Assembly: GCF_022869865.1 (NCBI RefSeq)
Contig: NZ_CP094984.1
Coordinates: forward strand, 3,348,001-3,412,000
DNA from: Arthrobacter zhangbolii
GTDB taxonomy: Bacteria; Actinomycetota; Actinomycetes; Actinomycetales; Micrococcaceae
DNA: 64,000 nucleotides
Reading direction: 5' to 3'
Shown: positions 32,625-49,311 of the stretch, piece by piece
Numbering within the stretch: position 1 is the first letter of the stretch
Layout of the letters: every line of letters starts with the position of its first letter
Position numbers and translations under genes: made by a program
The notes under the pieces: generated by a model
The model's input: only the letters and a program-made list of their open reading frames with translations
Told to the model about the DNA's origin: nothing
Database searches by the model: none

Positions 32625-32740
32625 GATGTCCGTCCTATCGACTGCGTCGCGGGCCGGCGCCCGTCCGGGCCGCCAGTTTCATTGTGGGCAGGGCATATTC
32701 CCGGCACAACCCCTGCACGCAACCGGAACTACCCGTGACA

Positions 32741-32789
32741 TCTATAACCATTGACTTTGTCAATAGAACGCTGTTTCAATGGTTATAGA
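32741..32789. promoter_or_regulatory. PhdR/CouR-type operator upstream of phdA
   Basis: ATAACCATTGAC-TTT-GTCAAT is at 32744-32764; the 32750-32764 core is a perfect 6-bp inverted repeat. A second ATAACCATTGA lies inverted at 32776-32787, so the arms TCTATAACCATTGA (32741-32754) and TCAATGGTTATAGA (32776-32789) form a perfect 14-bp inverted repeat. The same motif precedes phdB. Confidence 0.7.
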
Positions 32790-32822
32790 AAATGTGAAGT
32801 GCATCACGACAGAGGAGTCACG

Positions 32823-34328
32823 GTGAATCTCGGAATCGGTTCCTGGCCGGCACGGCGCGCAAAGGTGCGGCCGGACGATACTGCCATCACCTTCGAGAAC
32901 CGGGAATGGACCTACGCCGAGGTGGACCGGCGCGTCCTGCGCCTGGCCAACGCCCTCCGCGACGCCGGCATCCGCAGTGGTGACCGGGTGGCCTACGCCG
33001 GTTTCAACCACCCTGCACTGCTGGAGACCTTCTTCGCCGCCGGACTCATCGGGGCGGCCTGCGTGCTGGTAAACCCGCGGCTGCGCGCTGCCGAGGTGGA
33101 CTACATCCTGCGCGACTGCGGAGCGCGCGCCGTGGTCTTCACCGAAGAGCAGCGGCCAAATGCCGAACAGCTTTCCACCGGACTCGACGGCATCCAATGG
33201 CTCAGTGTCGACGGCGGCGGACCGGGCACGCTATTTGAGGATTTCCTGGCCGGCGGCAGCACGGCGCCGGTGACCGATGAGGTGGATCTGGAAGACCTCG
33301 CGCTGATCATGTACACCTCGGGCACCACCGGGCGGCCCAAGGGTGCAATGCTCTCCCACCGCAACCTCTTCTACCAGTACGTCAACGCCCTGATCGGCCA
33401 GGACCTGCGCCAGGATGAGGTCCATCTGGCCGTTGCGCCGCTGTTCCACATCGCCGGGCTGAACATGGTCACCCTTCCCACCTTCACCCTGGGCGGGCGG
33501 ATCATCATCCACCGGTCCTTCTCGCCGGACACCGTGCTGCGCGAAATCGCCGAATCCGGTGTCACCTCCGCCTTTATGGTTCCCGCCATGCTGGATGCCC
33601 TCAGCCAGCATCCCGGATTTGCATCCGCGGACCTGGGCTCCCTCCGCGGGCTGATGGTGGGCGGCTCACCCCTGCCGGAACGCACCATCCGCACCTGGGC
33701 GGAAAAGGATGTGGCCATCATGCAGGGCTTCGGCATGACCGAAACGGCACCCGGCGTGTGCATGCTCGAGTCCCGGGACGGACTTGCCAAGGCGGGCTCG
33801 GCCGGGCGGCCGCACTTCTTCACCGAATACCGGCTCGTGGATCTGGACGGCAAGGACGTTCCCCCCGGCGTCGCCGGCGAAGTGGTGATTCAGGGCCCCA
33901 ATGTGATGTCCGGGTACTGGAACAAGCCCGAGGAATCCGCAAAGGCGCTCGACGGCGGCTGGTACCACTCCGGCGACGTCGCGCTCCGGGACGAGGACGG
34001 TTACCTGTACATCAAGGACCGGATCAAGGACATGTACATCTCCGGCGGAGAGAACGTCTACCCCGCCGAAGTGGAAAACGCCCTGTTGAACATTCCGGGC
34101 GTGCTCGACGCCGCCGTCATCGGCGTCCCCGACGAAAAGTGGGGAGAGACCGGGCAGGCCTTTATCACCCTCGCCGAAGGGGACCCCCGCGGCGGCGAGG
34201 ATTTCCGCGCCCTGCTGCGGGAACGCCTGGCAACCTACAAGCTTCCGCGCGAGATCCAGGTGGTGCGCGAACTTCCCCGCACCGCCACCGGCAAGATCCA
34301 GAAACACATCCTCCGCTCCGGCGCCTAG
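32823..34328 (+). CDS. phdA: Phenylpropanoid/cinnamate-CoA ligase (PhdA/CouL type)
   Basis: A 501-residue AMP-forming CoA ligase. IMYTSGTTGRPKGAMLSH (about 158-175) is the nucleotide motif, GFGMTET the adenine motif, and RTATGKIQKH holds the catalytic Lys. The likely substrates are cinnamic acids or dihydrocinnamic acids, inferred from the neighbourhood, which matches the Corynebacterium glutamicum phd and Rhodococcus cou clusters (recalled). GTG at 32823 is selected: AGAGGAG lies 5 nt upstream; the frame is open earlier, but that segment contains the operator. It is followed by the transporter with 36 bp between. Confidence 0.85.
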   Translation: MNLGIGSWPARRAKVRPDDTAITFENREWTYAEVDRRVLRLANALRDAGIRSGDRVAYAGFNHPALLETFFAAGLIGAACVLVNPRLRAAEVDYILRDCGARAVVFTEEQRPNAEQLSTGLDGIQWLSVDGGGPGTLFEDFLAGGSTAPVTDEVDLEDLALIMYTSGTTGRPKGAMLSHRNLFYQYVNALIGQDLRQDEVHLAVAPLFHIAGLNMVTLPTFTLGGRIIIHRSFSPDTVLREIAESGVTSAFMVPAMLDALSQHPGFASADLGSLRGLMVGGSPLPERTIRTWAEKDVAIMQGFGMTETAPGVCMLESRDGLAKAGSAGRPHFFTEYRLVDLDGKDVPPGVAGEVVIQGPNVMSGYWNKPEESAKALDGGWYHSGDVALRDEDGYLYIKDRIKDMYISGGENVYPAEVENALLNIPGVLDAAVIGVPDEKWGETGQAFITLAEGDPRGGEDFRALLRERLATYKLPREIQVVRELPRTATGKIQKHILRSGA

Positions 34329-34364
34329 GCACCGATTCCCATCACCCACCCTCAAGGAACCGCC

Positions 34365-35708
34365 ATGTCCGTAACACCCGACGCCCCCGCGCCATCGGGG
34401 CAGCGCACCCAAAGGAATGAAGCCCGACGGGTCATTCTTTCCAGCTACCTTGGCTCCACCATTGAGTTCTACGACTTCCTGCTTTATGCCTCGGCCGCAG
34501 CCCTGGTCTTTCCGCACGTCTTCTTCACCGATCTCGATCCATTGGCGGGGGCGATCGCCTCCTACGGCACGTTCGCCGCCGGCTACCTCGCGCGCCCCTT
34601 GGGCGGCGCCATCTTTGGACACTTCGGAGACCGGCTGGGCCGGAAGAAGATGCTGATCCTCTCCATGCTGATCATGGGCATTGCCTCAACACTTATCGGC
34701 CTGATCCCGGGCGCGGACATTATCGGATCCTGGGGCGCCGTCATCCTGATCCTGCTGCGCGTCTGCCAGGGCATCGCCGTCGGCGGCGAATGGGGCGGGG
34801 CCGCACTGATGGCCCTGGAGCACTCCGCAAAGGGCAACCGCGGGTTCGCTGCCTCGTTCACCAACGCGGGCGCTCCCACCGGCGCCGCCCTGGGTACCTT
34901 CATTCTGGGGCTTTTCGCCGCCATGCCTGAGGATCAGTTCCTGGCCTGGGGCTGGCGGATACCGTTCCTGCTCTCGGCACTGCTGCTGGGCGTCGGCATC
35001 TTCGTGCGCTCCAAGGTCTCGGAAAGCCCCATCTTCAAGGAAGCCGTGGAGCGGGAGGAAGCCAACAAGGCTGCCAACAGGACCAAGCCCAAACTGCCCA
35101 TCCTGCAGGTCCTCCGCCGCCCGAAGGCACTGATCTTCACCATGCTGGCCGGAGCCTCAGGCTTCGCCCTCCAGGTTTTCCTGGCTACCTTCGCGGTGAG
35201 TTACGCAGTGGAAAACGGTGCTGAGCGACAGGCTGTGCTGTATACCTTCGCGATTGCCTCCATCCTCAGCGTGGCCTTCGTAGTGGGCATGGGCAGGCTT
35301 TCGGACCGGCTGGGACGCCGCCCGGTGATGCTGGCCGGCCTGGCGCTGTTCATCGCGCTGATCTTCCCGATGTTCAGCTGGCTCGCCACCGCCAACTCCT
35401 GGCTGATTTTCACCACTTTTATGGTGGGCCTGCTCTGCCACGCGGCAATCTACGGCCCGCTGGCCGCGTTCATTTCGGAGCAGTTCGGCACGTCCTCCCG
35501 TTACACCGGAGCGTCCCTGGGCTACCAGTTTGCCACTCTGCTCGGAGCCGGATTCACGCCGAGCATCCTGTCCTCCATCTACGCCTCCAGCGACCGGTCC
35601 ACCGGTCCTGTGGTCTGGTACCTGGCCGGGATGGCACTGGTCAGCGCCATCTTTATCCTGCTGACCCGCGAGTCCAAGGACTACGATCTGGCGACCCACG
35701 AGCACTGA
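34365..35708 (+). CDS. phdT: MHS-family metabolite:H+ symporter (PhdT/CouT type)
   Basis: A 447-residue MFS transporter with twelve helices. SSYLGSTIEFYDFLLYASAAAL, RPLGGAIFGHFGDRLGRKK and GIAVGGEWGGAALMALE (trimmed where long) are hallmark motifs of the MHS branch, which imports organic and aromatic acids with protons. Cotranscription with the CoA ligase indicates uptake of phenylpropanoids. AAGGAA precedes ATG. It converges on phdR through a terminator hairpin. Confidence 0.87.
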   Translation: MSVTPDAPAPSGQRTQRNEARRVILSSYLGSTIEFYDFLLYASAAALVFPHVFFTDLDPLAGAIASYGTFAAGYLARPLGGAIFGHFGDRLGRKKMLILSMLIMGIASTLIGLIPGADIIGSWGAVILILLRVCQGIAVGGEWGGAALMALEHSAKGNRGFAASFTNAGAPTGAALGTFILGLFAAMPEDQFLAWGWRIPFLLSALLLGVGIFVRSKVSESPIFKEAVEREEANKAANRTKPKLPILQVLRRPKALIFTMLAGASGFALQVFLATFAVSYAVENGAERQAVLYTFAIASILSVAFVVGMGRLSDRLGRRPVMLAGLALFIALIFPMFSWLATANSWLIFTTFMVGLLCHAAIYGPLAAFISEQFGTSSRYTGASLGYQFATLLGAGFTPSILSSIYASSDRSTGPVVWYLAGMALVSAIFILLTRESKDYDLATHEH

Positions 35709-35722
35709 CGGAACGGCGCGTT

Positions 35723-35760
35723 GTGGCCGCTTCGGATTCCCGCAGATCCGAAGCGGCCAC
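35723..35760. terminator. Bidirectional terminator between phdT and phdR
   Basis: GTGGCCGCTTCGGAT and ATCCGAAGCGGCCAC form a perfect 15-bp stem with an 8-nt loop. Confidence 0.75.
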
Positions 35761-35771
35761 TGGCGTAAGCG

Positions 35772-36224
35772 CTAGAAAGCCACCCGCTGCAGCAGCCGGG
35801 ACAGTTCCTGCCGCTCCGCCGCGGAGAGCGCTGCCAGGGAGGATTCAGTGGCTCCTGCCACCAGTTTTCGCGCCTGTGCGTAGAGCTCCCGGCCCCCTCC
35901 GGTGGGCATGATGACCTTGGAACGGCGGTCCCTCGGGTCCGTCCGGCGCTCGACGGCGCCGCGCTGTTCCAGTTCATCCACGATGGCCACAATCTGGCTG
36001 GGGTCCAGCACCAGGAACTGGCTCAGCTCCCGCTGCGTGGGCGCTCCGCCGCTGCAGGCCAGCGAGAGTACCGAATAGTGCCGCACTTTCAGTCCCAGCT
36101 CGGCAAGGCTCCGGTTAGCCTGCGCGGATCCGATCGAGGCCGCGCGGGCCATCAGGAACACCGGTTCCGCACCGAGGTCGGATTCCGTGAAACGCACGGC
36201 GGGGCCATCAGGGGTGGTGGTCAT
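35772..36224 (-). CDS. phdR: MarR family repressor of the phd cluster (PhdR/CouR type)
   Basis: A 150-residue winged-helix MarR protein. The recognition helix region SQFLVLDPSQIVAIVDELEQRG and the wing VERRTDPRDRRSKVIMPT (trimmed) identify the family. CouR/PhdR homologues derepress on binding the cinnamoyl-CoA-type thioester made by the ligase (established for that family). ATG 36224 has AAGGA 8 nt upstream; the frame is open further but lacks conservation. It is divergent from phdB; the 172-bp spacer carries a single ATAACCGTTGAC operator. Confidence 0.87.
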   Translation of the reverse strand: MTTTPDGPAVRFTESDLGAEPVFLMARAASIGSAQANRSLAELGLKVRHYSVLSLACSGGAPTQRELSQFLVLDPSQIVAIVDELEQRGAVERRTDPRDRRSKVIMPTGGGRELYAQARKLVAGATESSLAALSAAERQELSRLLQRVAF

Positions 36225-36294
36225 GGGGAGGTGTCCTTCGGCGGAGTTGGATATGGGCCCACAGCGGCTGTTGCCCCCAGTATAGGTGAGAAAC

Positions 36295-36317
36295 ATAACC
36301 GTTGACATTTTCAACGA
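36295..36317. promoter_or_regulatory. PhdR-type operator between phdR and phdB
   Basis: ATAACCGTTGAC-ATT-TTCAACG. The CGTTGA/TCAACG core (36300-36316) is a perfect 6-bp inverted repeat. It matches the site upstream of phdA at 18 of 22 aligned positions by eye. Confidence 0.7.
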
Positions 36318-36396
36318 TATGGCGTGGAATAGGAGCACGTCGCCGCCAACGTGGCCGGAGTCACAACAGGCCCCGGCCCAGCAGAAGGAGCAACAC

Positions 36397-37347
36397 ATGA
36401 GCAACGAATCCGCAGGTGCACTGGCCGGCAAGGTCGCCGTCGTCACCGGATCCGGACAGGGCCTCGGCCTGGCCTACGCACAGGAACTGGCCCGCCACGG
36501 GGCGGCCGTAGTGATCAACGACGTTGTGCAGGAGACCGCCGAACGTGCCGTTGAGGCCATCACCGCCGCCGGCGGCCGGGCGGTTGCCGTGGTGGCCCCG
36601 GTCGGAAGCACTGAAGCTGCCACCGCACTCGTCGAGGGCGCCGTCGCCGCCTTCGGACGCCTCGACATCCTGGTCACCAATGCCGGCGTACTGCGTGATA
36701 AGTCGATACTGAAGATGACCGATGAAGACTTCGACCTGGTCATTCAGGTACACCTTCGCGGCACCTTTACCTGCGCCCGGGAGGCATACCGCCACTTCAA
36801 GGAAAACAACGTGGCCGGGCGCATCATCACCATCGGCTCCCCCACCGGACAGTACGGCAACTTCGGGCAGACCAATTACGCCGCCGCCAAGGCCGGCATC
36901 GTGGGCATGGTCCGCACCTGGGCACTGGAAATGAAGAAGGCCGGCGTCACTGCCAACGCCGTCATTCCGGTAGCGGCTACGGCCATGACCGAAACCGTGC
37001 CGTTCTTCCGCAGCGCGGTGGAGGCGGACCGCCGGGGCGAACCCATGCCGGACTTCTTCCGCAAGGACCTCGGTTTCGGCACCGCGAACGACGTCGCCGG
37101 CCTAATCGCCTACCTGGCTTCCGACGAAGCCGCAGATATCACCGGCCAGGCCATCGGCGTCGGCGGAGACCGTCTGCAGATCTTCTCCCACCCGCAGCCT
37201 GTCGTGACCGAATACCGGGACGGCGGCTGGGATTTCGACAGCCTGCGCGAACAGTTCCCGGCCGCCGCCGAAGGAAACCTGCAGCGCGTGGGCGAGAAAC
37301 TGCCGCCGCTGCCCGAGGAACTCCAGACCGCACCGCAGGCACGGTAG
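36397..37347 (+). CDS. phdB: SDR 3-hydroxyacyl-CoA dehydrogenase (PhdB/CouN type)
   Basis: A 316-residue SDR, related to the dehydrogenase half of MFE-2 enzymes. NAD loop TGSGQGLG at residues 17-24, TNAGVL mid-protein, catalytic Ser in IGSPTGQYGN, and NYAAAK as the Tyr/Lys pair are present. It should oxidise the 3-hydroxy-3-arylpropionyl-CoA made by the hydratase. A 70-residue C-terminal extension follows the classical SDR end, as in the MFE-2-like group. AGAAGGAG is 6 nt before ATG 36397. It is first in the phdBCDE operon. Confidence 0.85.
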   Translation: MSNESAGALAGKVAVVTGSGQGLGLAYAQELARHGAAVVINDVVQETAERAVEAITAAGGRAVAVVAPVGSTEAATALVEGAVAAFGRLDILVTNAGVLRDKSILKMTDEDFDLVIQVHLRGTFTCAREAYRHFKENNVAGRIITIGSPTGQYGNFGQTNYAAAKAGIVGMVRTWALEMKKAGVTANAVIPVAATAMTETVPFFRSAVEADRRGEPMPDFFRKDLGFGTANDVAGLIAYLASDEAADITGQAIGVGGDRLQIFSHPQPVVTEYRDGGWDFDSLREQFPAAAEGNLQRVGEKLPPLPEELQTAPQAR

Positions 37348-37364
37348 GAAAAGGGAAAATTCAC

Positions 37365-38306
37365 ATGGTTTACGAATACGGGCTGGATCTGGCCACCCTG
37401 GATGCGATCGACATGCACGTCCACATCGAGTGTTCCGACCACGGACATGCCTCCCTGCCCCCGGCCCTGACCGAGGCATCGGCCAAGTACTTCAAGTCAG
37501 AGGACCGCAGTCCGTCCCTGGACACCATTGCCGAACGCTACCGCGAATGGCGCATGGCCGCCGTCGTGTTCACCGTGGACGCCACCACCGCACTTGGCCA
37601 CGAGCCGAACCCCATCGAGGAGATCGCCGAGGGGGCAGCCCGCAACAATGACGTGCTTATCCCCTTTGGATCGGTTGATCCGCTGCAGGGTGCCAGGGCC
37701 GTGGACCGTGCCCGGATGCTGGTGGAGGACTACGGCGTAAAGGGCTTCAAGTTCCACCCCTCCCTGCAGGGTTTCGACCCGTCGGATCCGCAGTTCTATC
37801 CGATCTATGAGGCCATCCAGTCCCTGGGCGTACCTGCCCTCTTCCACACCGGGCAGAACGGCATGGGCGCCGGGCTGCCGGGCGGGTACGGCATTAAGCT
37901 CGCCTACTCCAACCCGATGCTGCTCGACGCCGTCGCTGCAGACTTTCCCGAACTCCAGGTGATAATGGCCCACCCCTCCGTCCCATGGCAGGACGAGGCG
38001 AACTCCATTGCCACCCACAAGGCCAACGTGTGGATTGATCTGTCCGGGTGGTCCCCTAAATACTTCCCCGAGTCCCTGGTCCGCGCCTCAAACTCGATGC
38101 TGCAGGACAAGGTCCTCTTCGGCACGGACTATCCGCTGATCTCCCCGCAGAAGTGGCTCGGGGCCTTTGAACAGCAGAGCTTCAAGGACGAGGTCCGGCC
38201 CAAGATCCTCAAGGAGAACGCCATCCGCCTGCTCGGACTGGATGCACTCCCCGGGCCGGCCGCCCCGCAGGACGCACTGGGCACGGCAGGCGGTCCGGTG
38301 GCATGA
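37365..38306 (+). CDS. phdC: Amidohydrolase-2 family aryl-beta-ketoacyl-CoA hydrolase (PhdC/CouO type)
   Basis: A 313-residue metal-dependent hydrolase. Metal-site residues are His18 and His20 (DMHVH), His161 (LFHTGQ), His203 (MAHPS) and Asp255 (FGTDYP); Rhodococcus CouO requires the equivalent Asp257 (established). In that pathway the enzyme replaces thiolase and thioesterase, releasing the aryl beta-keto acid/aryl carboxylate from the beta-ketoacyl-CoA. AAGGGA precedes ATG. Its stop overlaps the phdD start by 4 bp. Confidence 0.83.
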   Translation: MVYEYGLDLATLDAIDMHVHIECSDHGHASLPPALTEASAKYFKSEDRSPSLDTIAERYREWRMAAVVFTVDATTALGHEPNPIEEIAEGAARNNDVLIPFGSVDPLQGARAVDRARMLVEDYGVKGFKFHPSLQGFDPSDPQFYPIYEAIQSLGVPALFHTGQNGMGAGLPGGYGIKLAYSNPMLLDAVAADFPELQVIMAHPSVPWQDEANSIATHKANVWIDLSGWSPKYFPESLVRASNSMLQDKVLFGTDYPLISPQKWLGAFEQQSFKDEVRPKILKENAIRLLGLDALPGPAAPQDALGTAGGPVA

Positions 38307-39499
38307 CGGCCCTAACCACAGATGAACGGCTATACCCGGACTGCGACCCCCTGAATGTCGAAGGCCGGCTGACCGAGGAGGAAAAGGCCCCGCTGCGCCG
38401 CCTGCGCCGGATGCTCGACGAGACGGCACGGCCCCTGCTGGAGGAGTATTGGGAAGCGGGGGAATTTCCCCACCAGCTGGACGGCCCGCTGCGGGATTTG
38501 AACCTCATGGCACCGGAGGAGCTCACCGTCGGCGGCGGCGAGCCCCGCGCCCTGTACCACGGCTTCCGGATCTTCGAGCTGGCCCGCACGGATGCTTCAC
38601 TGGCCACGTACTACACCGCGCAGGCCGGGCTGTTCCGCACCGCCTGCCGGGTGGGGGGAACGGCCGAACAGTTCGCGGCCTGGGATCCCGCCATTACCAC
38701 CTTCGAGATGACCGGCGTCTTCTGTCTGACCGAGCCGGAGCACGGCTCCGACATTGCCGGCGGCCTGGCGACCTCTGCCCGCCGTGAGGGAGACGAATGG
38801 ATTCTGGATGGTGCCAAACGCTGGATCGGCGGCGCCTTCAGCGCCGATTACCTGGCCGTCTTTGCCCGGGATACCGCCGACGGCCAGGTCAAAGGCTTCC
38901 TCGTGGAGCGCGGGGCCGAGGGAGTACATCTGGAAAAAATCCGCGGAAAGACCTCGCTGCGAATGATGCAAAACGCGCACATCACCCTCGACGGTGTCCG
39001 GGTACCGGAAAGCCTGCGGCTGGGAAACGTCAATTCATTCAAGGACGTTGCCGCCATGCTGCGCGCCATGCGCTCGGACGTCGCGTGGATTGCCACGGGC
39101 ATCCAGGCGGGAGCGTATGAAGCCGCACTGCGGTACGTGCGCAGCCGCGAACAGTTTGGCCGGTCCCTGGGCAGCTTCCAACTGGTGCAGGAGAAACTGG
39201 CCCGCATGCTCGGCAACGTCACCGCGTCACTGAGCCTGGTGGCCGGACTCGCGGAACGGCAGCAGGAGGGGATTTTCCGGGATGAGGATTCAGCCCTGGC
39301 CAAGATGTGGATCAGCCTGCACATGCGCGACACCGTGGCGCTGGCCCGCGAAGTGGTCGGCGGCAACGGCATCACGCTCGCTACCGACGTCGCCAGGTTC
39401 CACGCCGACGCCGAGGCGGTCTACTCCTACGAGGGAACCCACGAAATCAATGCGCTGGTGGTGGGCCGTTCCATCACCGGCAAAAGCGCCTTCGCCTGA
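38303..39499 (+). CDS. phdD: Acyl-CoA dehydrogenase (PhdD type)
   Basis: A 398-residue flavoprotein. TGVFCLTEPEHGSDI is the FAD/substrate loop, and the catalytic Glu lies in YSYEGTHEINALVVGR, as in glutaryl-CoA dehydrogenase-like enzymes. It would desaturate arylpropionyl-CoA (dihydrocinnamoyl-CoA) to cinnamoyl-CoA, so the cluster can use saturated as well as unsaturated phenylpropanoids. ATG overlaps the phdC stop by 4 bp, so expression is coupled. Confidence 0.85.
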   Translation: MTALTTDERLYPDCDPLNVEGRLTEEEKAPLRRLRRMLDETARPLLEEYWEAGEFPHQLDGPLRDLNLMAPEELTVGGGEPRALYHGFRIFELARTDASLATYYTAQAGLFRTACRVGGTAEQFAAWDPAITTFEMTGVFCLTEPEHGSDIAGGLATSARREGDEWILDGAKRWIGGAFSADYLAVFARDTADGQVKGFLVERGAEGVHLEKIRGKTSLRMMQNAHITLDGVRVPESLRLGNVNSFKDVAAMLRAMRSDVAWIATGIQAGAYEAALRYVRSREQFGRSLGSFQLVQEKLARMLGNVTASLSLVAGLAERQQEGIFRDEDSALAKMWISLHMRDTVALAREVVGGNGITLATDVARFHADAEAVYSYEGTHEINALVVGRSITGKSAFA

Positions 39500-39538
39500 C
39501 ACCCATCAGCACACCCAACAGCAACCAAGGAGATACCC

Positions 39539-40015
39539 ATGACTGCAGCAGCATCCCCGGCCAAGACCGTTGTCGACTTCAGCGAGGTACCCGGCCTCGT
39601 AGGCCGGAACCTCGGCTACTCCGAGTACCGGGTCGTCACCCAGGGCCAGGTGGACACCTTCGCCGATGCCACGGATGACCACCAGTGGATCCATGTGGAC
39701 CCCGAACGGGCCAAGGACGGACCCTTTGGCGCACCCATCGCCCACGGCTTCCTCACCCTGTCCCTGCTGATCCCGATGTGGACCGAACTTTTCGATGTCA
39801 CCGGCGCCGGGACCAAGGTCAATTACGGCCTGGACAAGGTCCGGTTCACTTCACCGGTGAAGGTCGGTTCCCGCATCCGCATGACCGTCACCATCGCGGA
39901 TGTCCAGGAGGTCAAGGGCAACGGACTGCACGTGGTGGCCGATGCCACCATAGAGATCGAGGGCGAAGAGCGGCCCGCCGTCGTGGCCCGGTTCCTCAGC
40001 CGGCTGTACCCCTAA
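39539..40015 (+). CDS. phdE: MaoC-like enoyl-CoA hydratase (PhdE/CouM type)
   Basis: A 158-residue single hot-dog domain. The R-hydratase motif is DDHQWIHVDPERAKDGPFGAPIAHGFLTLSL (core DHQWIHVD and PIAHGFLTL), where Asp and His are catalytic. It would hydrate cinnamoyl-CoA to the 3-hydroxy ester for PhdB. AAGGAG is 6 nt before ATG. Last gene of the phdBCDE operon. Confidence 0.85.
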   Translation: MTAAASPAKTVVDFSEVPGLVGRNLGYSEYRVVTQGQVDTFADATDDHQWIHVDPERAKDGPFGAPIAHGFLTLSLLIPMWTELFDVTGAGTKVNYGLDKVRFTSPVKVGSRIRMTVTIADVQEVKGNGLHVVADATIEIEGEERPAVVARFLSRLYP

Positions 40016-40698: not shown

Positions 40699-40726
40699 AT
40701 TTCACTAGACACCTGTCCAGTGAAAT
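40699..40726. promoter_or_regulatory. TetR-type operator upstream of the P450 island operon
   Basis: ATTTCACTAGAC-ACCT-GTCCAGTGAAAT is an inverted repeat matching at 11 of 12 positions per arm. The core TAGACANNTGTCCA is typical of TetR-family operators. It lies 61-88 bp upstream of the SDR start at 40787. Confidence 0.65.
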
Positions 40727-40786
40727 GGCATGATGTGGATCACATTCATGGACCACACCGCCGTGGTCGGAGCAAAAGGGGTACCC

Positions 40787-41599
40787 GTGCAACTGCAGGA
40801 CAAAATCGCCGTCATCACCGGAGCCGGCTCGGGCATGGGGCTCGCCGCAGTGCGGACCTTCGTAGCCGAAGGCGCCACCGTCTACGCCCTCGACATATCC
40901 CAGGCCGCCCTGGACCGCGAACTGGCAGACCTGCCCGGGGCCACGGGCATTGCCGTTGACATTGCCGATTCCGCTGCCGTCAACGCCGCGTTCAAACGCG
41001 TTGCCGATGAACACGGCCGGCTGGACGTACTGATCAACGCCGCCGGCGTGAACACCCCCCATCGGCAGGCGACGGAATGGCTGGACGGCATCAACCACAG
41101 GATGCTGGACGCCATGAAGGCCGGCGAGCCGTTCACCCCCGAATTCATCACCGAAATCCCGGACGAGGACTTTGACCGGGTCATGCGCATCAATGTGTAC
41201 GGCACGTTCTACTGCCTGCGCGCAGCCGTGCCCCTGCTGAAGGCAGCCGGCGGCGGCGCCGTCGTCAACTTCGCTTCCGTGGCCGGCCTGGTGGGCCTGC
41301 CCATGCCCACCTACTACCCCGCGTCCAAGGCCGCCGTCGTCGGCATGACGCGCACCACCGCCGGTGAACTGGCACCGTTCGGGATCCGGGTCAATGCCCT
41401 GGCCCCCGCCGGAATCAACACACAGCTGATGACCCAGTCCGGTGAGGACCATGTCCAGGCCCTGCTGGCACTGCAGCCGCTCAAACGTCTGGCCGAACCG
41501 GAGGAAATCGCCGGAACCCTCGTCTTCCTGGCCTCCGACGCGGGCGCCCACTACACCGGCCAGGTGCTCTCGCCCTCGGGCGGGGCCCTGATGTCCTGA
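40787..41599 (+). CDS. SDR family oxidoreductase, first gene of the P450 island
   Basis: A 270-residue classical SDR. Cofactor loop TGAGSGMG, NAAGV mid-protein, NFASVAG catalytic Ser and YYPASK Tyr/Lys pair. A 30-residue insertion follows the NAAG segment (HRQATEWLDGINHRM), longer than in most SDRs of this type. GTG at 40787 is chosen over upstream ATGs because AAAAGGGG lies 5-6 nt before it. Probably oxidises an alcohol released by the esterase or P450 downstream (inference). Confidence 0.83.
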   Translation: MQLQDKIAVITGAGSGMGLAAVRTFVAEGATVYALDISQAALDRELADLPGATGIAVDIADSAAVNAAFKRVADEHGRLDVLINAAGVNTPHRQATEWLDGINHRMLDAMKAGEPFTPEFITEIPDEDFDRVMRINVYGTFYCLRAAVPLLKAAGGGAVVNFASVAGLVGLPMPTYYPASKAAVVGMTRTTAGELAPFGIRVNALAPAGINTQLMTQSGEDHVQALLALQPLKRLAEPEEIAGTLVFLASDAGAHYTGQVLSPSGGALMS

Positions 41600-41660
41600 C
41601 CCGCCCTCTCCCCGCAGTTCACCGGCGTTTCCCGCCGCAGCGCCCACCCCGAAAGGCACC

Positions 41661-42830
41661 ATGATCACCAATGTTGAGGGCCTAAACCCCGCAGCCCTGC
41701 AAACCCTCGAAGACACCATCGCAACGGATATTGACCGCCGCAGCTACGACGGAGCCAACATCATCGTCGCCCGGCACGGCCGGATCGGACTGCAGGGCAG
41801 CTACGGGTTCGCCGACCGGGCCGCCGGCCGGCGCACGGACCGCGGGGATGTTTACCGGATCCTGTCCATGTCCAAGGCCTTCACCAACACCCTGGCCTAC
41901 CGTGCCCTGGGCGAAGGGAAACTCGCACTGTCCACCCGCGTAGTGGACCTGATTCCGGAGTTCTTCGGCACCGACCGGTTCCGGGCCGTGCGCAAGGACA
42001 AGATCAACCTGGGCCACCTGCTCACGCACCGCTCCGGAATGCCCGCCACCCCCGATCCCGGGCTGCCCGCGGACCGGTTCGGTGTACTGGCTGACGTGAT
42101 CGAGGCCCTGGGCGGCGTGGACGTAGTGAACGAGCCGGGCAGCAACCTCAACTACGCACCCTCCATCAACCACGCACTGATCGGCGAAATGGTCCGGCGC
42201 GCTTATGGCTACGACCATTTCCGGGACCTGGCCCGGGATCTGGTCTTCACTCCGCTGGGCATGGGCGACACAGCCTTCGGGCTGCCCGCCGACCGCGCCG
42301 AACGGGCTGTTCCGCTGAAGGTCTATGTTCCCGAAGACGGTTGGCTCTCACCCGAGGACATTGAGTGCCTGAACACCTACATCACCGAAGACGCTGAAAT
42401 GCCCTGGGTGGGGGCGACCTCCACCGTTGACGATGTGTTCCGCTTCGCCGAAATGTTCCGCAACCAGGGCCGGGCCGACGGGGTCCAGTTGGTGGCCCCG
42501 GCGGTGGTGGATGCAGCCACCACCCTGCAGACAGGGGACATGCCCAATGACCTGTATTCGGGGATCGCCGCCATGCGCGGCTGGGAAGCGCCCAACGGCA
42601 ACTTCGGCCTGGGCTTCTCCCTCTCCGGCACCGGCACCGCGCCCACGTTCTTCGGTCCGTTCACCAGCCCGCGGACGTTCGGCAACTACGGTGCCGGGTC
42701 CACGCTGTTCTGGGTGGACCCCGTCCGGGACCTGACCTTCGTATTCCTCTCCTCCGGCGTCATGGACGAGGGCGAGAACGTAGCCCGGTTCCAGAAGCTC
42801 TCCACCCTCGCCGTCGCCGCAGCACTCTAA
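41661..42830 (+). CDS. Class C beta-lactamase-fold serine hydrolase (EstB-like esterase)
   Basis: A 389-residue cytoplasmic protein of the beta-lactamase/esterase VIII family: SMSK gives the nucleophile Ser69 and Lys72; LNYAPSINHALIG is the Tyr-x-x-like second motif with a Pro in place of the usual Asn. There is no signal peptide, so antibiotic hydrolysis is unlikely; ester or lactone hydrolysis is more probable. GAAAGG precedes ATG. It is flanked at 61 bp and 23 bp by the SDR and P450 genes, all in one transcription unit. Confidence 0.82.
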   Translation: MITNVEGLNPAALQTLEDTIATDIDRRSYDGANIIVARHGRIGLQGSYGFADRAAGRRTDRGDVYRILSMSKAFTNTLAYRALGEGKLALSTRVVDLIPEFFGTDRFRAVRKDKINLGHLLTHRSGMPATPDPGLPADRFGVLADVIEALGGVDVVNEPGSNLNYAPSINHALIGEMVRRAYGYDHFRDLARDLVFTPLGMGDTAFGLPADRAERAVPLKVYVPEDGWLSPEDIECLNTYITEDAEMPWVGATSTVDDVFRFAEMFRNQGRADGVQLVAPAVVDAATTLQTGDMPNDLYSGIAAMRGWEAPNGNFGLGFSLSGTGTAPTFFGPFTSPRTFGNYGAGSTLFWVDPVRDLTFVFLSSGVMDEGENVARFQKLSTLAVAAAL

Positions 42831-42853
42831 ACCCCCTTTCAAGGACGCCCCCC

Positions 42854-45097
42854 ATGACCGCCACCAGTTCCGCCCCCGCCAAATGCCCCGTGGCCCACGG
42901 CTTCGATGCCATGGGCGATGCCTACTACCGTGACCCTGCCGCGCACTTCGCTGAAGTGCGCGACGCCACGCCTACCTTCTTTTACCCGCACCTGAATGCC
43001 TGGATTGTCACCCGACGCGAAGACGCACTGACCGTGCTCTCGGACTGGCAGAAATTCTCCTCCGCCTCCAACGGCGGCCTGATCGAGGTGCCCGAGGAAT
43101 ACCGGTCCACCATTCCAGCGGAACTGATGTCCCGCATCCTGGTCGGGTCCGATCCGCCCGGGCACACCACGGCGCGCGGCGTGGCCCAGCTCGGCTTCCT
43201 GCAGGAACGGATGGACGCCCTGCAGCCGGAGATCGAAGCCCGGGCACACCGCATCATTGACCGGTTCGAGAACAACGGTGCCGGCAACCTGCTGGAGGAC
43301 TACTGTCTGGAGCTGACCACCCAGACGCTCATGGCGCTGATGGACCTGGACTACGAATACGACCCGATGATGCGCCAGCTGCGCGACGATTTCTTCCAGA
43401 TCCTGGCCTCCGCGCAGGAGCCGTTCCCGGAGCCCCGGCGCTCCGAGGTATGGAAGCGCTACACCGAGGCCAACCTGGTACTGCGCGGCATCATTGAATC
43501 CCGGCGCACCTCGGAGGCGGAGGACCTGATTTCCGTGATGGCCTCGGCCCGCGACGAGAAGGGAAACTATGCCCTCGGTGCGGACCAGATTGCCATCCAC
43601 CTGACCGAGTTCGCCGCAGCGGGCACCGATACCACCGCCCAGGCCATGGCCAACGCCGTGCTGTTCCTGGACGGCAGCCCCGAGGCCCGCAGTGACGCGC
43701 TGGCCGAACCGGAACTCTGGCCGCGGGTCTTCGAGGAAACCGTCCGGCGCCGACCCTCCTCCACCTTCGCGTCCCGGCGCGCGAACATCGACATTGAACT
43801 CGGCGGGGCGCAGATCAGGGCCGGGGACATGGTCTGGCTTGCGCTGGCGGCAGTGAACACCGATCCCGACTACGTGGAGCACCCCTTCACCTTCGACATC
43901 CACCGCACCGACCCCGCCGACCACCTGGGCTTTTCCACCGGGCGGCACAAGTGCCTGGGCAATCCGCTGGCGCGGGTGCAGGGTGCTGCCGGGCTGAAGG
44001 TCCTCTACGAACGGCTGCCGTCCCTGCGCCCGGATGACGCCGAGGCGCTGGACTTCGTCCGGTTCGCGCTGCTGCCCGCCCGCCGCTCGCTGAACGTACA
44101 CTGGGACGTCGCCGACGTCGCCCGTTCCAAGGAACGCGCCGTGCGCACCTTGAACCTGCGGGTGCTGCAGCGCCGCGAGGAGTCCGACGGCGTGGTCTCA
44201 CTGCTCCTGGGCCACCCCGACGGCGGGGAGCTGCCCCGCTGGAAGGCCGGGGCGCACATTGACCTGCACCTCCCCGGGGAACCGGAGCAGCTGGTGCGCC
44301 AGTACTCGCTGTGTTCGGATCCGGAGGACACCACCGCCTACCGGGTAGGGGTGCTGCGTGCCGACGCCGGCCGCGGCGGCTCGCTGGCGGTGCACCGGAC
44401 CCTGCGCGAAGGTGCAGCGGTCACCGTGTCCTGGCCGCGGAACAACTTCCGCTTCACCGCCGCCCGGAAGTACCTGTTTATTGCCGGCGGTATCGGCGTC
44501 ACCCCCATCCTCGCCATGATCCGCGAAGCTGAACGGGCGGGCGCGGACTGGGAGCTGGTCTACGGCGGAAGGACCCGCAGTTCCATGGCCTTCCTGGATG
44601 AGCTGGCACCCTACGCGGAGCGGGTGACCCTGGTGCCCCAGGACACCCACGGGCTGATGGACCTGCCGAACCTGCTGCGCGAGCCGCGGGAGGACACCCT
44701 GATCTACTGCTGCGGTCCCGAGCCGGTGCTCCGTGCCGCGGAAACCCTGTCCGCGCACTGGCCCAAGGGGTCCCTGCGCCTGGAGCGCTTCGCCGCCAAG
44801 GAAGTGGAGATCACCGGACCGGAGCACGGTTTCGAGGTGGAATTCGCGGCATCCGGAGTCACCGTGCAGGTGGGCACCGGCGAGAGCATTCTTGACGCTG
44901 CGGAGCGTGCCGGGCTGCCGGTCATCTCCTCCTGCAAAACCGGCACCTGCGGCACCTGCGAAACGCGGCTGCTCTCCGGGCGGGCCGAACACCGGGACTC
45001 GATCCTCACCGCCGACGAGCAGGACGCCAATGAAACGCTGATGATCTGCGTTTCCCGGGCCGAGCGCGGCTGCCCGCGGCTGGTCCTGGACCGGTAG
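42854..45097 (+). CDS. Self-sufficient cytochrome P450 fused to FMN reductase and 2Fe-2S ferredoxin (CYP116B type)
   Basis: A 747-residue fusion. The P450 domain spans about 1-415, with I-helix AAAGTDTT (254-261), ExxR at Glu295-Arg298 and heme ligand Cys367 in FSTGRHKCLG. A phthalate dioxygenase reductase-like part follows (about 430-655): RQYSL binds FMN and IAGGIGVTPIL binds NADH. The C-terminal [2Fe-2S] domain has the CxxxxCxxC pattern in SSCKTGTCGTCET and a fourth Cys in MICVSRA. This architecture needs no separate partners and is typical of P450RhF. Substrate unknown. AAGGA precedes ATG. Confidence 0.92.
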   Translation: MTATSSAPAKCPVAHGFDAMGDAYYRDPAAHFAEVRDATPTFFYPHLNAWIVTRREDALTVLSDWQKFSSASNGGLIEVPEEYRSTIPAELMSRILVGSDPPGHTTARGVAQLGFLQERMDALQPEIEARAHRIIDRFENNGAGNLLEDYCLELTTQTLMALMDLDYEYDPMMRQLRDDFFQILASAQEPFPEPRRSEVWKRYTEANLVLRGIIESRRTSEAEDLISVMASARDEKGNYALGADQIAIHLTEFAAAGTDTTAQAMANAVLFLDGSPEARSDALAEPELWPRVFEETVRRRPSSTFASRRANIDIELGGAQIRAGDMVWLALAAVNTDPDYVEHPFTFDIHRTDPADHLGFSTGRHKCLGNPLARVQGAAGLKVLYERLPSLRPDDAEALDFVRFALLPARRSLNVHWDVADVARSKERAVRTLNLRVLQRREESDGVVSLLLGHPDGGELPRWKAGAHIDLHLPGEPEQLVRQYSLCSDPEDTTAYRVGVLRADAGRGGSLAVHRTLREGAAVTVSWPRNNFRFTAARKYLFIAGGIGVTPILAMIREAERAGADWELVYGGRTRSSMAFLDELAPYAERVTLVPQDTHGLMDLPNLLREPREDTLIYCCGPEPVLRAAETLSAHWPKGSLRLERFAAKEVEITGPEHGFEVEFAASGVTVQVGTGESILDAAERAGLPVISSCKTGTCGTCETRLLSGRAEHRDSILTADEQDANETLMICVSRAERGCPRLVLDR

Positions 45098-45109
45098 GCA
45101 CCCGGCGCC

Positions 45110-45137
45110 AGCGTGCCGGCGGACCCGCCGGCACGCT
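45110..45137. terminator. Bidirectional terminator between P450 and TetR genes
   Basis: AGCGTGCCGGCGG and CCGCCGGCACGCT form a 13-bp GC-rich stem with a minimal loop; the last two bases of the stem lie in the TetR stop codon. Confidence 0.7.
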
Positions 45138-45720
45138 AGCGCGGTTCGAACAGGGTCAGCAGCTGCCGGGCCAGGGCGTCCAGTACCAGCTCATGCCGGT
45201 CCTGGTGGCCCCGGACATAGAGGAAGTAGAAGTTGCGGTCCAGGCTCATCATGAAGGTGACCAGGTGGGTCTGGCGTTCCTCGCGCTCCTGTTCCGAGGC
45301 GCAGGTGGAATACAGCCGCTGCATGGATCCGCTGACCCGGCGCAGCATCCCCAGCCACTCATCTGCCACCGCCGTGTCCGCGGCCATCGCCTGTTCCATG
45401 GCGGCGAACTCAATGGAGTAGGTATCCCACAGCTCCCGGATCTCGACCAGCCAGGCGCGCAGGACGGTGAAGTCGTAGCCGGGCAGCGCGTCCAGCCGCC
45501 GGTACCCGGCAGCAATTTCATCTTCGATGTCGCGCATTTTCGCCATGACCAGTTCGGGCTTGTTGCGGAAATGCAGGTACAGGTTGGCGCGGCTGCCCCC
45601 GGCAGCCGCGGCAATCTGGTTCATGCTGGTGGCCGAAAACCCGTTATCCAGGAACAGGCGCATGGCGGTGTCAATGAAGCGCTGCCGTGTCTCGCTGCGC
45701 TGCTGCTCACGAAGATTCAT
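45136..45720 (-). CDS. TetR/AcrR regulator of the P450/ABC island
   Basis: A 194-residue TetR protein. The helix-turn-helix covers about residues 8-55 (TSMNQIAAAAGGSRANLYLHF). The C-terminal domain is of the usual length. It sits convergent to the P450 operon and downstream of the ABC importer on the same strand. The palindrome at 40699 is its likely target; a half-site TGGACA lies upstream of this gene. Start at 45720 (MNLREQQRSETRQRF) is the family-typical beginning; no strong ribosome-binding site is visible. Confidence 0.82.
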   Translation of the reverse strand: MNLREQQRSETRQRFIDTAMRLFLDNGFSATSMNQIAAAAGGSRANLYLHFRNKPELVMAKMRDIEDEIAAGYRRLDALPGYDFTVLRAWLVEIRELWDTYSIEFAAMEQAMAADTAVADEWLGMLRRVSGSMQRLYSTCASEQEREERQTHLVTFMMSLDRNFYFLYVRGHQDRHELVLDALARQLLTLFEPR

Positions 45721-45824
45721 TGCCGGACCGCCGCGCGGCAGGAGGCGCTGCCCGCGGCGGCGGAAAGCGAAGGGGCGGCGGTGCAGATGTCCATACCCTG
45801 ACCTTATCCGCAGCCGCGCGCCAC

Positions 45825-46607
45825 CTACGTCCCCGTCCGCCGCTTCACCGCTGCCTCCACGGCCGAGACTGCGGCGTAGAGTAGGATCGAGGCCAGGGTC
45901 ACCACCACGACGCCGGCCCACACCTGGTCATACCGGGCCCGGGACACGGCGGAGACAATTCCGTAGCCGATGCCCTGCCCGGTGGCCAGCCATTCGGCCA
46001 GCAGCGCGCCGGTGAGTGCCCCGGGGATGGAGACCCGCAGCGCGGTGAACAGCGCCGGTGCCGCAGAGGGCATGGCCACCTTGCGGAAGGCGTCCAGCCG
46101 GCTGCCGCCGTAAACCTGCACCACCTCCAGCATGGCCGGCGAGGCCGAGCGCAGCCCGAAGACGATGGTTACCAGGGCCGGAAAAAACACCACTATCCCG
46201 CCCATGGCCGCCACTGCCGCTTCCTGGCGTCCAAAGACCAGGATGATCATCGGGGCCAGGGCCACCAGCGGCACGGACCGCAGCAGCATCGCCACCGGCA
46301 TCAGGGCATGTTCCACGCCCCTAAAGAGGGTGAAGAGACAGGCCGCGGCGAGCGCGGCCGCCATGCCGGCGGAGAACCCCATGCCGGCGTCGAGCAGGGT
46401 CTGCCCCAGCTGTCCCAGCACCAGGTCGCGGTGGGCGGCGGCCTCCGGGTCCCGTATCAGGTAACTCCACACGTCCAGGGGGCCCTTGCCAATGTAGGAG
46501 GAGACGTTAAAGACCTGAAGCAGGCCCACCCACAGCACCCCGACGACGGCCAGGGAGAGTGCCAGCCCGAGCAGCGTCCGCGCGGCGGACTGCAGTGCCG
46601 CCCCCAT
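45825..46607 (-). CDS. ABC transporter permease (SsuC/TauC-like)
   Basis: A 260-residue BPD-type permease with about six helices. The EAA-loop-like segment is VQVYGGSRLDAFRKVAMPSAAPALFTALRVSIPGALTGALLAEW (core PSAAPALFTALRVSIPGA). ATG 46607 overlaps the preceding permease stop by 1 bp. It is one half of a heteromeric pore for the NMT1-type binding protein. Confidence 0.85.
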   Translation of the reverse strand: MGAALQSAARTLLGLALSLAVVGVLWVGLLQVFNVSSYIGKGPLDVWSYLIRDPEAAAHRDLVLGQLGQTLLDAGMGFSAGMAAALAAACLFTLFRGVEHALMPVAMLLRSVPLVALAPMIILVFGRQEAAVAAMGGIVVFFPALVTIVFGLRSASPAMLEVVQVYGGSRLDAFRKVAMPSAAPALFTALRVSIPGALTGALLAEWLATGQGIGYGIVSAVSRARYDQVWAGVVVVTLASILLYAAVSAVEAAVKRRTGT

Positions 46608-47425
46608 CAGAGGCTCCCCGCCCGGACGCCGGATGCCCAGGGCGCGGCGATCCGGGACACCAGTCCCAGCACCGCGTAAGCCGCACCCGCCAGGAGGGCG
46701 CAGGCAAACGCCACACCCCACACCCGGGCCACTTCCAGCGTCTGCTGGGCGTTGACCATGGCCGGTCCGAGGCCGCGGTCCACACCGCCCACGTATTCAC
46801 CAAGGATCGCTCCCAGCAGTGCCGCCGGGGCGGCGATCTTCAGGGCCGCGAGGACGGCCGGCAGCGCAGCAATCAGCCGCACCTTGACCAGCTGGTGGAT
46901 CCGCCGTCCCCCGAACACCGTCACAATGTCCAGGCAGGCCCGGTCGGCAGCCTTCAGCCCGGCCAGGGCGCTGACCATGGTGGTGAAGAAAACGGACAGC
47001 GCGGCCAGGGCGACGGCGGTGCCGGAGGATTCCCCGGAACGCGGCGGCCCCAGCACAATAAAGATGACCGGACCCACCGCCACTACCGGCAGGCAGTAGG
47101 TAATCACCGCCAGCTGGGTGGCAAGGCGTTCCAGGCCCGGCAGCAGCAGCACCACAAACGCCAGGATCAGGGCCAGGGCATTACCCCAGGCATATCCGGC
47201 TCCGGCTTCCGCCAGCGTCACGGCGGCATTGCGCCAGTAAAAGCCGGCGCCGTCCGCCCCCATCTGGCTGAGCACCTGCCACGGCGTGGGGATGGCCCCG
47301 GGCCCGCCGCCGGGCGGTGCACCGATTCCGCGCAGGAACGTGGCGGCGCCGATCCACCACAGGGCCAGCACCGCCGCCGTGCCCGCTGCTCCTACGGCCC
47401 AGGGCGGCACCCTGCGCCCGTTCAC
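46607..47425 (-). CDS. ABC transporter permease (SsuC/TauC-like)
   Basis: A 272-residue permease with about six helices, the second pore subunit. The loop [37 protein letters not shown] (core [18 protein letters not shown]) is the EAA region. An atypical Gly-rich extracytoplasmic segment ([16 protein letters not shown]) follows the first helix. It overlaps the ATPase gene by 4 bp upstream and the second permease by 1 bp downstream. Confidence 0.85.
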
Positions 47426-48237
47426 CGCGCGTCCAGCCCGGCCGGTGCGGCAGCCTGGCGCGGACTCTCCGGCCCGGCGAACAGCAGTTCGGATGCGTGG
47501 TCATGCAGGGCGTGGAACTCGGGGCTGCGCATCATGTCCGGTGTGCGCGGGCGGGGCAGGTCCACGTCAATGACTTCCTTGATCCGGCCGGGCCGCGGGC
47601 TCATCACCGCCACGGTGTCGGAAAGAAAGATCGCCTCGGAAATCCCGTGCGTGACCATCAGCGTGGTGGCCGGTTTCTCTGTCCAGATCCGCAGCAGCTC
47701 CAGGTTCAGGCGCTGCCGGGTCATGTCATCCAGTGCCCCAAACGGCTCATCCAGCAGCAGCACCGAGGGTTTGAGCACCAGTGCCCGCGCAATGGACACA
47801 CGCTGGCGCATGCCGCCGGAGAGCTGCGCCGGACGGGCCTTTTCGAAGCCCTCCAGCCCCACCAGCGCAATGAGTTCGCGGATGTATGCATCATCGGCGG
47901 GCAGTCCGGATACCTCCAGCGGCAGCCGGATGTTCGCGTAGACACTGCGCCAGGGCAGCAGGGCCGAGTCCTGGAAGGCAATGCCCAGTTCATGGCCGCG
48001 GCGCAGGTCCTGCGGGGTCTTCCCGTCCACCAGCACGTCTCCGGTTGTGGGGTTCTCCAACCCGGCCAGGATGCGCAGCACCGTGGACTTACCGCAGCCC
48101 GAGGGGCCCAGCAGGGACAGGAAGGAGCCGCGGTCAGTACTCAGGTTGGCCGCTTCCAGGGCCACTACCGGGCTGCGGCCGGCAGCGTAGGTTTTGCCGA
48201 GGTTCTGCAGGCTGATCCCGCTTCCGGTGCGCGGCAT
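47422..48237 (-). CDS. ABC transporter ATP-binding protein (SsuB/TauB-like)
   Basis: A 271-residue ATPase. Walker [10 protein letters not shown], signature LSGGMRQR, Walker [12 protein letters not shown] and H-loop VTHGISEA are intact. It belongs to the nitrate/sulfonate/thiamine-precursor importer group. The gene begins directly after the binding-protein stop (no gap) and overlaps the first permease by 4 bp. Confidence 0.88.
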
Positions 48238-49311
48238 CTATTTCAGCTCCGGGTTTTCCTCGTAGACCTCCGCCAGCAGGCTCATGTCAAAGACCTCTTC
48301 GGCTTCCAGGTCATATCCGGCCAGCTTGAGGATGGACAGGTTCTCCTGGATCAGCTCATCGCTGACCGTGAAAAGCCCGTTGGCGTCCGTCTCCGCGGAG
48401 ACCACCAGCTTGGTGTTCTGTTCCTCCGCCTGGCGGATTTCCTTGGCCATGTCCAGGTTCAGGTCCGAGCCGTAGACTTCCACGGCCAGCCGGGCGGATT
48501 CCTCGGGATCCGCCACTGCGTCCTGCCAGCCCCGCAGGGTGGCCCGCAGGAAGGCCTTCAGTTCTTCGCGGCGGGTCTCAATGGCCTCATCGGTGGTGAC
48601 AAAGCTCTCGGCAATAAACGGCAGTCCGTTATCGGCGAACGGCAGCACCGCGGTGGCATGCCCGGCCTGCTCCAGGGTCAGCACCTCATTGGTCAGGTAA
48701 CCGAAGAAACCGTCCACGTCACCGTTGACCAGCGGCTGCGGATCGTATTGGACCGGAACCTTCTCCACGGAACCCGGATCAATGCCGTTGACCTCCAGCA
48801 GCGCGTCGAAGAGTGTTTCGTTCACGCCGGCCTGTACACCGATCCGCTGGCCGGCTAGCTCCGCGGGCGTGGTGATGGGATTACCGTCCAGGGAAATGAT
48901 GACGAACGGGTTCTTTTGATAGGTGGTGCCGATGATCTTCAGCGGCGCGTCTTCCTCCGCGATGACCGGTGCAACCCCCATGGGGCTGGAGGTGCCTACC
49001 AGTGCGCCGCCGGAGAGGACCATGGTCTCGGTGGAGGTGCCGCCCGGGCCGCCCGCAATCAGGTTGACGTCGGAGAACCCGGCTTCCTTGTAGTAGCCGG
49101 AGGCATCCGCAAAATACTCGCCGGCAAACTCCGCGTTTTTGATCCAGGACAGGTTCAGGTCCAGGGTGCCGTAGTCAGCGGTGCCGCCGCCGGTGTCAGC
49201 CTCGGTGGATCCTCCGCACGCTGTGACCAGCAGGACCCCGGAAAGAGCCAGGGTTCCCGCGAGGATCCGTGCCGACGTCGAACGTGCCCTGAGGCGGGTG
49301 CTAAGGCTCAT
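48238..49311 (-). CDS. NMT1/THI5-like substrate-binding lipoprotein
   Basis: About 357 residues. Signal peptide with lipobox VTAC, then NMT1-like WIKNAEFAGEYFADASGYYKEAGF (core LSWIKNAEFAGEYFA). This family binds pyrimidine thiamine precursors, riboflavin, sulfonates or aromatic acids; the residues that would choose among these are not diagnostic by eye. No thiamine or flavin riboswitch is visible upstream. ATG 49311 is preferred; TTG 49329 is possible. It is the first gene of the SBP-ATPase-permease-permease-(TetR) unit. Confidence 0.83.
   Translation of the reverse strand: MSLSTRLRARSTSARILAGTLALSGVLLVTACGGSTEADTGGGTADYGTLDLNLSWIKNAEFAGEYFADASGYYKEAGFSDVNLIAGGPGGTSTETMVLSGGALVGTSSPMGVAPVIAEEDAPLKIIGTTYQKNPFVIISLDGNPITTPAELAGQRIGVQAGVNETLFDALLEVNGIDPGSVEKVPVQYDPQPLVNGDVDGFFGYLTNEVLTLEQAGHATAVLPFADNGLPFIAESFVTTDEAIETRREELKAFLRATLRGWQDAVADPEESARLAVEVYGSDLNLDMAKEIRQAEEQNTKLVVSAETDANGLFTVSDELIQENLSILKLAGYDLEAEEVFDMSLLAEVYEENPELK

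Follow-up and report, generated by a model that had tools for sequence, protein, structure and literature searches.

The window analyzed here, a stretch of 64,000 nucleotides, covers positions 3348001-3412000 of the 3464001 bases of a one-contig Arthrobacter genome, that of Arthrobacter zhangbolii. At 40.7-49.3 kb it holds eight genes that a sequence-only reading had joined in a single catabolic island: three enzymes, a TetR-family regulator and an ATP-binding cassette (ABC) importer. Comparison of loci shows the enzyme genes, for a short-chain dehydrogenase/reductase (SDR), a beta-lactamase-fold hydrolase and a cytochrome P450 fused to a reductase of the phthalate dioxygenase reductase (PDR) type, to form a single conserved unit that has one operator-like site, also conserved. 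Is the neighboring importer part of this unit? Its distribution indicates that it is a separate module, and the joint picture of a three-gene unit, its operator and a separate importer is very probably correct. As a whole, the system is probably a self-contained, TetR-governed catabolic operon in which an aromatic substrate would be unmasked to a phenol.

All eight genes are open frames with profile matches to the families named, and the layout given in the sequence-only reading (SDR, hydrolase, P450 fusion, convergent TetR, NMT1-type importer) agrees with these matches in families and coordinates. Its 'esterase-fold' enzyme is indeed a hydrolase, with the fold now refined to the beta-lactamase fold of PF00144. 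The features of the operon are:

40700..40725, no strand assigned, operator-like palindrome: exact inverted repeat, core TAGACACCTGTC at 40706-40717
40787..41599, + strand, SDR oxidoreductase: adh_short_C2, GTG start, YPASK active site
41661..42830, + strand, beta-lactamase-fold serine hydrolase: PF00144, SMSK at residues 69-72, Tyr165
42854..45097, + strand, predicted self-sufficient P450: heme domain, residues 1 to ~420, followed by a reductase of PDR type (NAD site, 2Fe-2S), residues ~430-747
45136..45720, - strand, TetR-family regulator, convergent to the operon: PF00440

The SDR start was set at GTG 40787 and not at ATG 40730 because the alignment of relatives begins at 40787.

In a scan of plasmids, sampled genomes and a genome collection at species level, the fused P450 turned up at 20 distinct loci: the window, L026-L039, L055, L057, L058, L059 and L077 (L-numbers are labels of the compared loci; L056 lies at the position of L034 and was dropped, and L002-L004 cover less of loci that are counted under other labels). 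They come from Arthrobacter, Kocuria, Corynebacterium, Streptomyces, Georgenia and others, and the cassette also occurs on a large plasmid; among the genomes compared the nearest named relative is Arthrobacter sp. zg-Y238, whose P450 is 87% identical. An SDR relative stands beside the fused P450 at all 20 loci (that of L059 matched from residue 41 on), the hydrolase is found at 18 and a TetR relative at 17. Wherever all three enzyme genes of this cassette exist their order is SDR-hydrolase-P450; L026 is the one exception, with the P450 in first place. The active-site motifs are likewise conserved: YPASK is kept in the SDRs of the cassette family, and the SxxK (S69-M-S-K72) and Tyr (Y165) of the hydrolase, the motif of family VIII serine esterases, are conserved in all 22 aligned relatives. 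The frequency of the cassette is low, though poorly measured by two 396-genome samples: it is present in two genomes of the order sample and two of the phylum sample, the window's own genome being one in each.

The three enzyme genes had been placed behind a TetR-type operator, and this is supported. The palindrome, TTTCACT-N12-AGTGAAA, is exact over the 26 bp of 40700-40725, with perfect arms; with up to three mismatches it has two matches in the window against a shuffle mean of 0.46, and at least two occurred in 7 of 100 shuffles. Its informative part is the core, TAGACACCTGTC, at 40706-40717. Exact TAGACASSTGTC is unique in the 3.46-Mb genome, the sole copy being at 40706-40717; with one mismatch there are eight genome matches, including the other strand of this site, against 19 for a reversed control pattern. 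Across loci the core has the pattern GACA-NN-TGTC, and GACANNTGTC is present in the 200 bp that precede the first cassette gene at 17 of the 20 fused loci, often inside CTAGACA-SS-TGTCTA or a near-match of that sequence. Outside the 200-bp upstream stretches of 23 loci, GACASSTGTC occurs only twice in 465,029 bases. Because the core is conserved and a TetR gene recurs, TetR is predicted to bind the core, and because the regulator belongs to the TetR family it would act by repression and induction. With a reporter, the operator offers a direct test of the inducer, and hence of the substrate class.

One locus, in Corynebacterium lubricantis (L026), has a second self-sufficient P450, of CYP116B type (16230-18638), adjoining the cassette. 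The GACANNTGTC core is found just upstream of this gene (operator-like site at 16115), and another TetR relative (46.6%) is encoded at 18901-19452. Perhaps one regulator type has been recruited here by two different P450 fusions.

The window P450 is a predicted self-sufficient fusion, with P450 and PDR (also termed the phthalate-family oxygenase reductase, PFOR, type) in one chain: the Cys loop, NAD motif and 2Fe-2S motif are present in 19 of 19 fused rows, and the ExxR-type and RxYSL flavin patterns in 18 each (the exceptions being L058 and L033, respectively). The heme-PFOR self-sufficient type is presented as the CYP116 family in the available text of two papers (PMC11889516, PMC12126322). 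Class VII CYP116B enzymes (P450 RhF, OhpA, CYP116B1, CYP116B46) indeed have the same order of heme, flavin/NAD reductase and 2Fe-2S domains in one chain, but they differ from the window P450 in heme domain, tree group and operon partners. Members of one CYP family are about 40% identical or more, and the window heme domain is only 25.8-27.7% (26-28%) identical to three CYP116B-type proteins (CYP116B1 of Cupriavidus metallidurans CH34, and fusions of Rhodococcus ruber and Corynebacterium lubricantis that were labeled CYP116B-type by similarity). The reductase domains are 37-44% identical to CYP116B-type reductases. In the heme tree and the reductase tree alike, the 19 fused rows group together and the CYP116B rows fall outside that group. 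(L036, with a partial P450, is absent from the trees, the L026 CYP116B-type protein was entered twice in each, and any stop or gap marks in the tblastn strings of standalone hits were removed before tree building.) The CYP116B rows have a group of their own (100/100), and the fused rows share one 100/100 branch with the unfused operon P450s described below; the outgroup branches are long. Placement against CYP116B members had been proposed as a check by the sequence-only reading, and on heme identity and trees we rejected CYP116B membership. The window enzyme is in all likelihood a P450-PDR fusion outside CYP116. It is therefore scarcely credible that it is a CYP116B enzyme for 2-hydroxyphenylacetate hydroxylation like OhpA of Cupriavidus JMP134; the identical domain order (heme, flavin/NAD reductase, ferredoxin) speaks for such a role, but the heme identity refutes it, and ohpA shares its operon with a transporter-subunit gene in a paper whose main text does not use the word 'esterase' (PMC8449657).

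Two more P450-PDR fusions were seen, at L083:10070-12202 (- strand) and L088:3447-5933, with heme domains 24-29% identical both to CYP116B-type proteins and to the window P450; P450-PDR fusion may thus have happened several times. Among the closest known proteins is the solved P450 7x53, of unstated function; it has a deposited chain of 411 residues, the heme part only, and literature searches found no publication on it.

What was the source of the fusion? The Rhodococcus plasmids pLP337 and pGD02.2.2 have an unfused operon, TetR / SDR-hydrolase-P450-PDR, with the gene order of the window and proteins 55% (P450), 53-56% (hydrolase) and 51-52% (SDR) identical to those of the window. Unlike in the window, P450 and reductase are separate genes, the TetR is only 33-34% identical and is encoded upstream, and no GACANNTGTC site is found at either operon. 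Both also have an additional Rieske oxygenase and PDR, and one runs on into fdhA, whose product matches the glutathione-independent formaldehyde dehydrogenase family above the curated cut-off. The alphaproteobacterium Salipiger has a split version of the operon, and this too is preceded by GACANNTGTC. The heme domain of the window enzyme is 55, 55 and 49% identical to the P450s of the two Rhodococcus and the Salipiger operons, respectively. We infer that the fusion arose from a P450 whose relatives remain unfused in the homologous Rhodococcus operons.

On the Rhodococcus plasmids (L078:7822-16285, L079:7855-16277) the genes directly before TetR and the unfused operon are those for PadR, the Rieske oxygenase, the PDR and an HtaA-domain protein. 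Hydrolase relatives (41-42%) are also encoded on Variovorax (L081:11980-16426) and Sphingobium (L082:11561-13978) plasmids, beside carboxymuconolactone-decarboxylase-family genes and without a close P450 relative.

The importer comprises four genes:

45825..46607, - strand, ABC permease 1, separate module: PF00528
46607..47425, - strand, ABC permease 2, separate module: PF00528
47422..48237, - strand, ABC ATPase, separate module: PF00005
48238..49329, - strand, NMT1-type substrate-binding protein, separate module: PF09084

The sequence-only reading had made this importer a member of the pathway, supposing that it takes up the compound that the three enzymes degrade. Adjacency and the convergent layout in the window genome argue for this, as does the position of the TetR gene, which follows the last importer gene on the same strand after about 100 bp, so that read-through is possible. 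The two modules, however, have different distributions. Of 39 genomes, 12 have an orthologue of the binding protein (at least 80% identity) and four have a full-length cassette P450, but only the window's own genome has both. At the same site, beside the same phenylpropanoid-type cluster, L066, L060 and L065 have the importer without the cassette, whereas L055 and L035 have the cassette with the importer reduced to 3' remnants of permease 1 (L055:7091-7184, 94 bp, 79%; L035:7252-7326, 75 bp, 73%). These decayed remnants suggest that the importer formerly stood at the present cassette site; they are upstream of the cassette, whereas permease 1 of the window is downstream of it. A relative of the binding protein was found near none of the 19 other cassette loci, of which L030, L031 and L036 are short contigs; the only permease match near them is generic (25-29%, L039), and generic ABC ATPases (37-39% identity) are found at three. 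The importer also occupies more than one place within the genus. No copy of the operator was found upstream of the importer or its binding-protein gene by pattern scans of the window and the genome. As far as sequence can tell, importer and P450 operon are regulated independently, an outcome that the sequence-only reading had itself named as one that would refute it. With an overlap of one genome in 39, reciprocal absence at one locus and no shared operator, we rejected the importer as part of the cassette unit, and a common function in uptake and degradation is very unlikely. The wider caution is that an importer adjoining a catabolic operon need not serve that operon.

The importer's binding protein has two solved matches: 3ix1, a pyrimidine-precursor binder, and 4nmy, an unspecified binding protein. 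The importer proteins score much lower than the cut-offs set for the named nitrate, taurine and sulfonate families. A hydroxymethylpyrimidine (HMP)/thiamine-precursor importer (ThiXYZ) would have an NMT1 binding protein together with a TPP riboswitch or thiamine genes close by; of these signs the NMT1 domain is present. An Rfam scan of 36-54 kb gave five matches, all below the gathering score, so that no RNA family reaches that score there and there is no riboswitch lead for the importer.

How would the separate, TetR-governed operon work? When no inducer is present, TetR would sit on TAGACA-SS-TGTCTA and block the operon. Once the enzymes are made, electrons would pass from NAD(P)H to flavin, 2Fe-2S and heme inside the single chain, and the P450 would oxidize an alkoxy (or alkyl) group on an aromatic compound. 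The hydrolase would cut an ester or lactone, the SDR would oxidize the alcohol released or formed, and the phenol product would go to flavin hydroxylases and ring-cleavage enzymes; in the window genome the adjacent phenylpropanoid pathway is a possible outlet. The guaiacol O-demethylase of Rhodococcus rhodochrous, a P450 with one ferredoxin reductase, forms a phenolic product and formaldehyde, and by analogy the window enzyme would act alike; the available text on that system does not mention SDR-hydrolase partners (PMC6411806). Family VIII esterases such as Est-Y29 share with the window hydrolase the PF00144 fold family and the SxxK and Tyr residues, but the similarity is low (best solved match E 4e-22, Est-Y29 E 1e-17).

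The proposed substrate class rests in part on the genes adjoining the cassette at other loci, named here by their NCBIfam matches. L031 has a 4-hydroxybenzoate 3-monooxygenase, over the subfamily but under the equivalog cut-off, with a 94% identical copy in L032; L058 a member of the phenol 2-monooxygenase family, over cut-off; L057 an MhpA-like hydroxylase with extradiol dioxygenase-like and fumarylacetoacetate hydrolase (FAH)-like proteins, all under cut-off; L037 a bifunctional salicylyl-CoA 5-hydroxylase, which exceeds its cut-off, and a FAD monooxygenase, which exceeds none; and L039 HsaA-, HsaB- and HsaD-like proteins (under cut-off) and a BphC-type dioxygenase. The named enzymes belong to families that act on phenolic substrates. 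PF01494 was found, among the matches listed, at four of 12 collapsed loci (L031, L037, L057 and L058, each separately confirmed), where its density across the genomes would predict 0.41 by chance (P about 5e-4). The fdhA gene in one Rhodococcus operon fits O-demethylation. Together, the neighboring genes, fdhA and the kept hydrolase and SDR motifs favor, with moderate confidence, an alkoxy- or acyl-aromatic compound that would be unmasked to a phenol. Of the substrates guessed from sequence alone, the aromatic ones (aryl ether or aryl ester) fit best, and we lean toward an aromatic substrate; O-dealkylation is a possible P450 step, held only tentatively.

The other guess, a terpenoid, is kept as a rival, here together with alicyclic or aliphatic esters and ethers. 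Several monoterpene pathways follow the general scheme of hydroxylation by a P450, oxidation to a ketone by an SDR and cleavage of the lactone or ester by a hydrolase, and the Salipiger split operon is near another P450, a glucose-methanol-choline (GMC) oxidoreductase, an aldehyde dehydrogenase and an SMP-30 family gene. The recurrence of aromatic hydroxylases in cassette neighborhoods and the formaldehyde dehydrogenase of the one Rhodococcus operon make such a substrate unlikely. A further alternative is that the enzymes do not supply carbon and instead detoxify or remodel a bioactive natural product (a plant or microbial phenolic). TetR, P450 and hydrolase do occur without dedicated ring cleavage at many loci, and the patchy spread of the cassette, with two order-sample genomes, Streptomyces and the large plasmid, is of the kind expected. 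But no further gene, exporters included, recurs at most cassette loci, and catabolic genes adjoin the cassette at several, so that detoxification is rather improbable.

Several observations weigh against the reading of the operon as a conserved, TetR-governed route for an aromatic substrate. The P value for PF01494 is optimistic because the family was picked after the neighbors were seen. (The density test used 17 rows, without L036, L039 and L077 and with L056 in place of L034, and neighborhood lengths typed by hand; the collapsed test further dropped L055, L035, L028, L030 and L032.) The other eight collapsed loci have no PF01494 among the matches listed, and since the hydroxylases vary by locus it is possible that they and the cassette serve different pathways. 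No fdhA-type formaldehyde dehydrogenase was found in the compared neighborhoods of the 20 fused loci, the only matches being generic ones of 27-28% at L026-L028. The unit itself has gaps. Two Corynebacterium loci lack the hydrolase between SDR and P450: L038, and L036, where the contig breaks off within the P450. No TetR was detected at L036, L037 (which has a LysR gene instead) or L057; and the operator core was not found upstream in L026, L057 and L059. Finally, in the reductase tree a stand-alone Kocuria PDR is nearer to the fused reductases (97/95) than are the Rhodococcus operon PDRs, so that the fusion partner may not be the operon's own PDR.

The sequence-only reading knew of no described pathway with this combination of genes, and literature searches aimed at the gene set or at such fusions, mostly of open-access papers and judged on titles and the opening lines of abstracts, gave no match either. 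The enzyme families are ordinary ones in a conserved combination that is without a match in the literature searched; the unusual component is the P450-PDR fusion outside CYP116. We suggest, as a proposal that may well not hold in full, that P450-PDR fusions are not confined to CYP116 but include a separate, operon-borne class, derived from a two-component system, with SDR, hydrolase and operator core kept as far as an alphaproteobacterium and serving a route, not yet described, for the removal of ether or ester groups from aromatics. Self-sufficient P450s are prized biocatalysts. A second fusion lineage, with another heme domain, unfused operon relatives and its own regulator/operator pair, would add new scaffolds for enzyme work and serve as a natural experiment in how P450-reductase fusions originate.

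Upstream of the operon is a further feature:

32751..40015, no strand assigned, phenylpropanoid-type flank: acyl-CoA ligase, major facilitator superfamily (MFS) transporter, MarR (- strand), SDR, amidohydrolase, acyl-CoA dehydrogenase and MaoC-like genes, all family matches

These family matches support the phenylpropanoid cluster that had been proposed there. The genes at 32.7-40.0 kb presumably correspond, one by one, to those of the phd phenylpropanoid cluster described in Corynebacterium glutamicum. In relatives it stays beside either module, importer or cassette. An island set off by base composition was rejected, the GC content of 40-48 kb being 0.67-0.70 against 0.63-0.72 in the whole window. 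Cassette and flanks alike have about 80% DNA identity to L055 and L035, and because this divergence is equal the cassette does not look recently arrived; its differing position relative to these two loci suggests local rearrangement. There is also a displaced stretch of 242 bp with a small reading frame at 32398-32639 of the window, about 7 kb from its place in L055, L035, L060, L065 and L066, where it comes just after the MaoC-like gene. This displacement, too, is apparently a local rearrangement.

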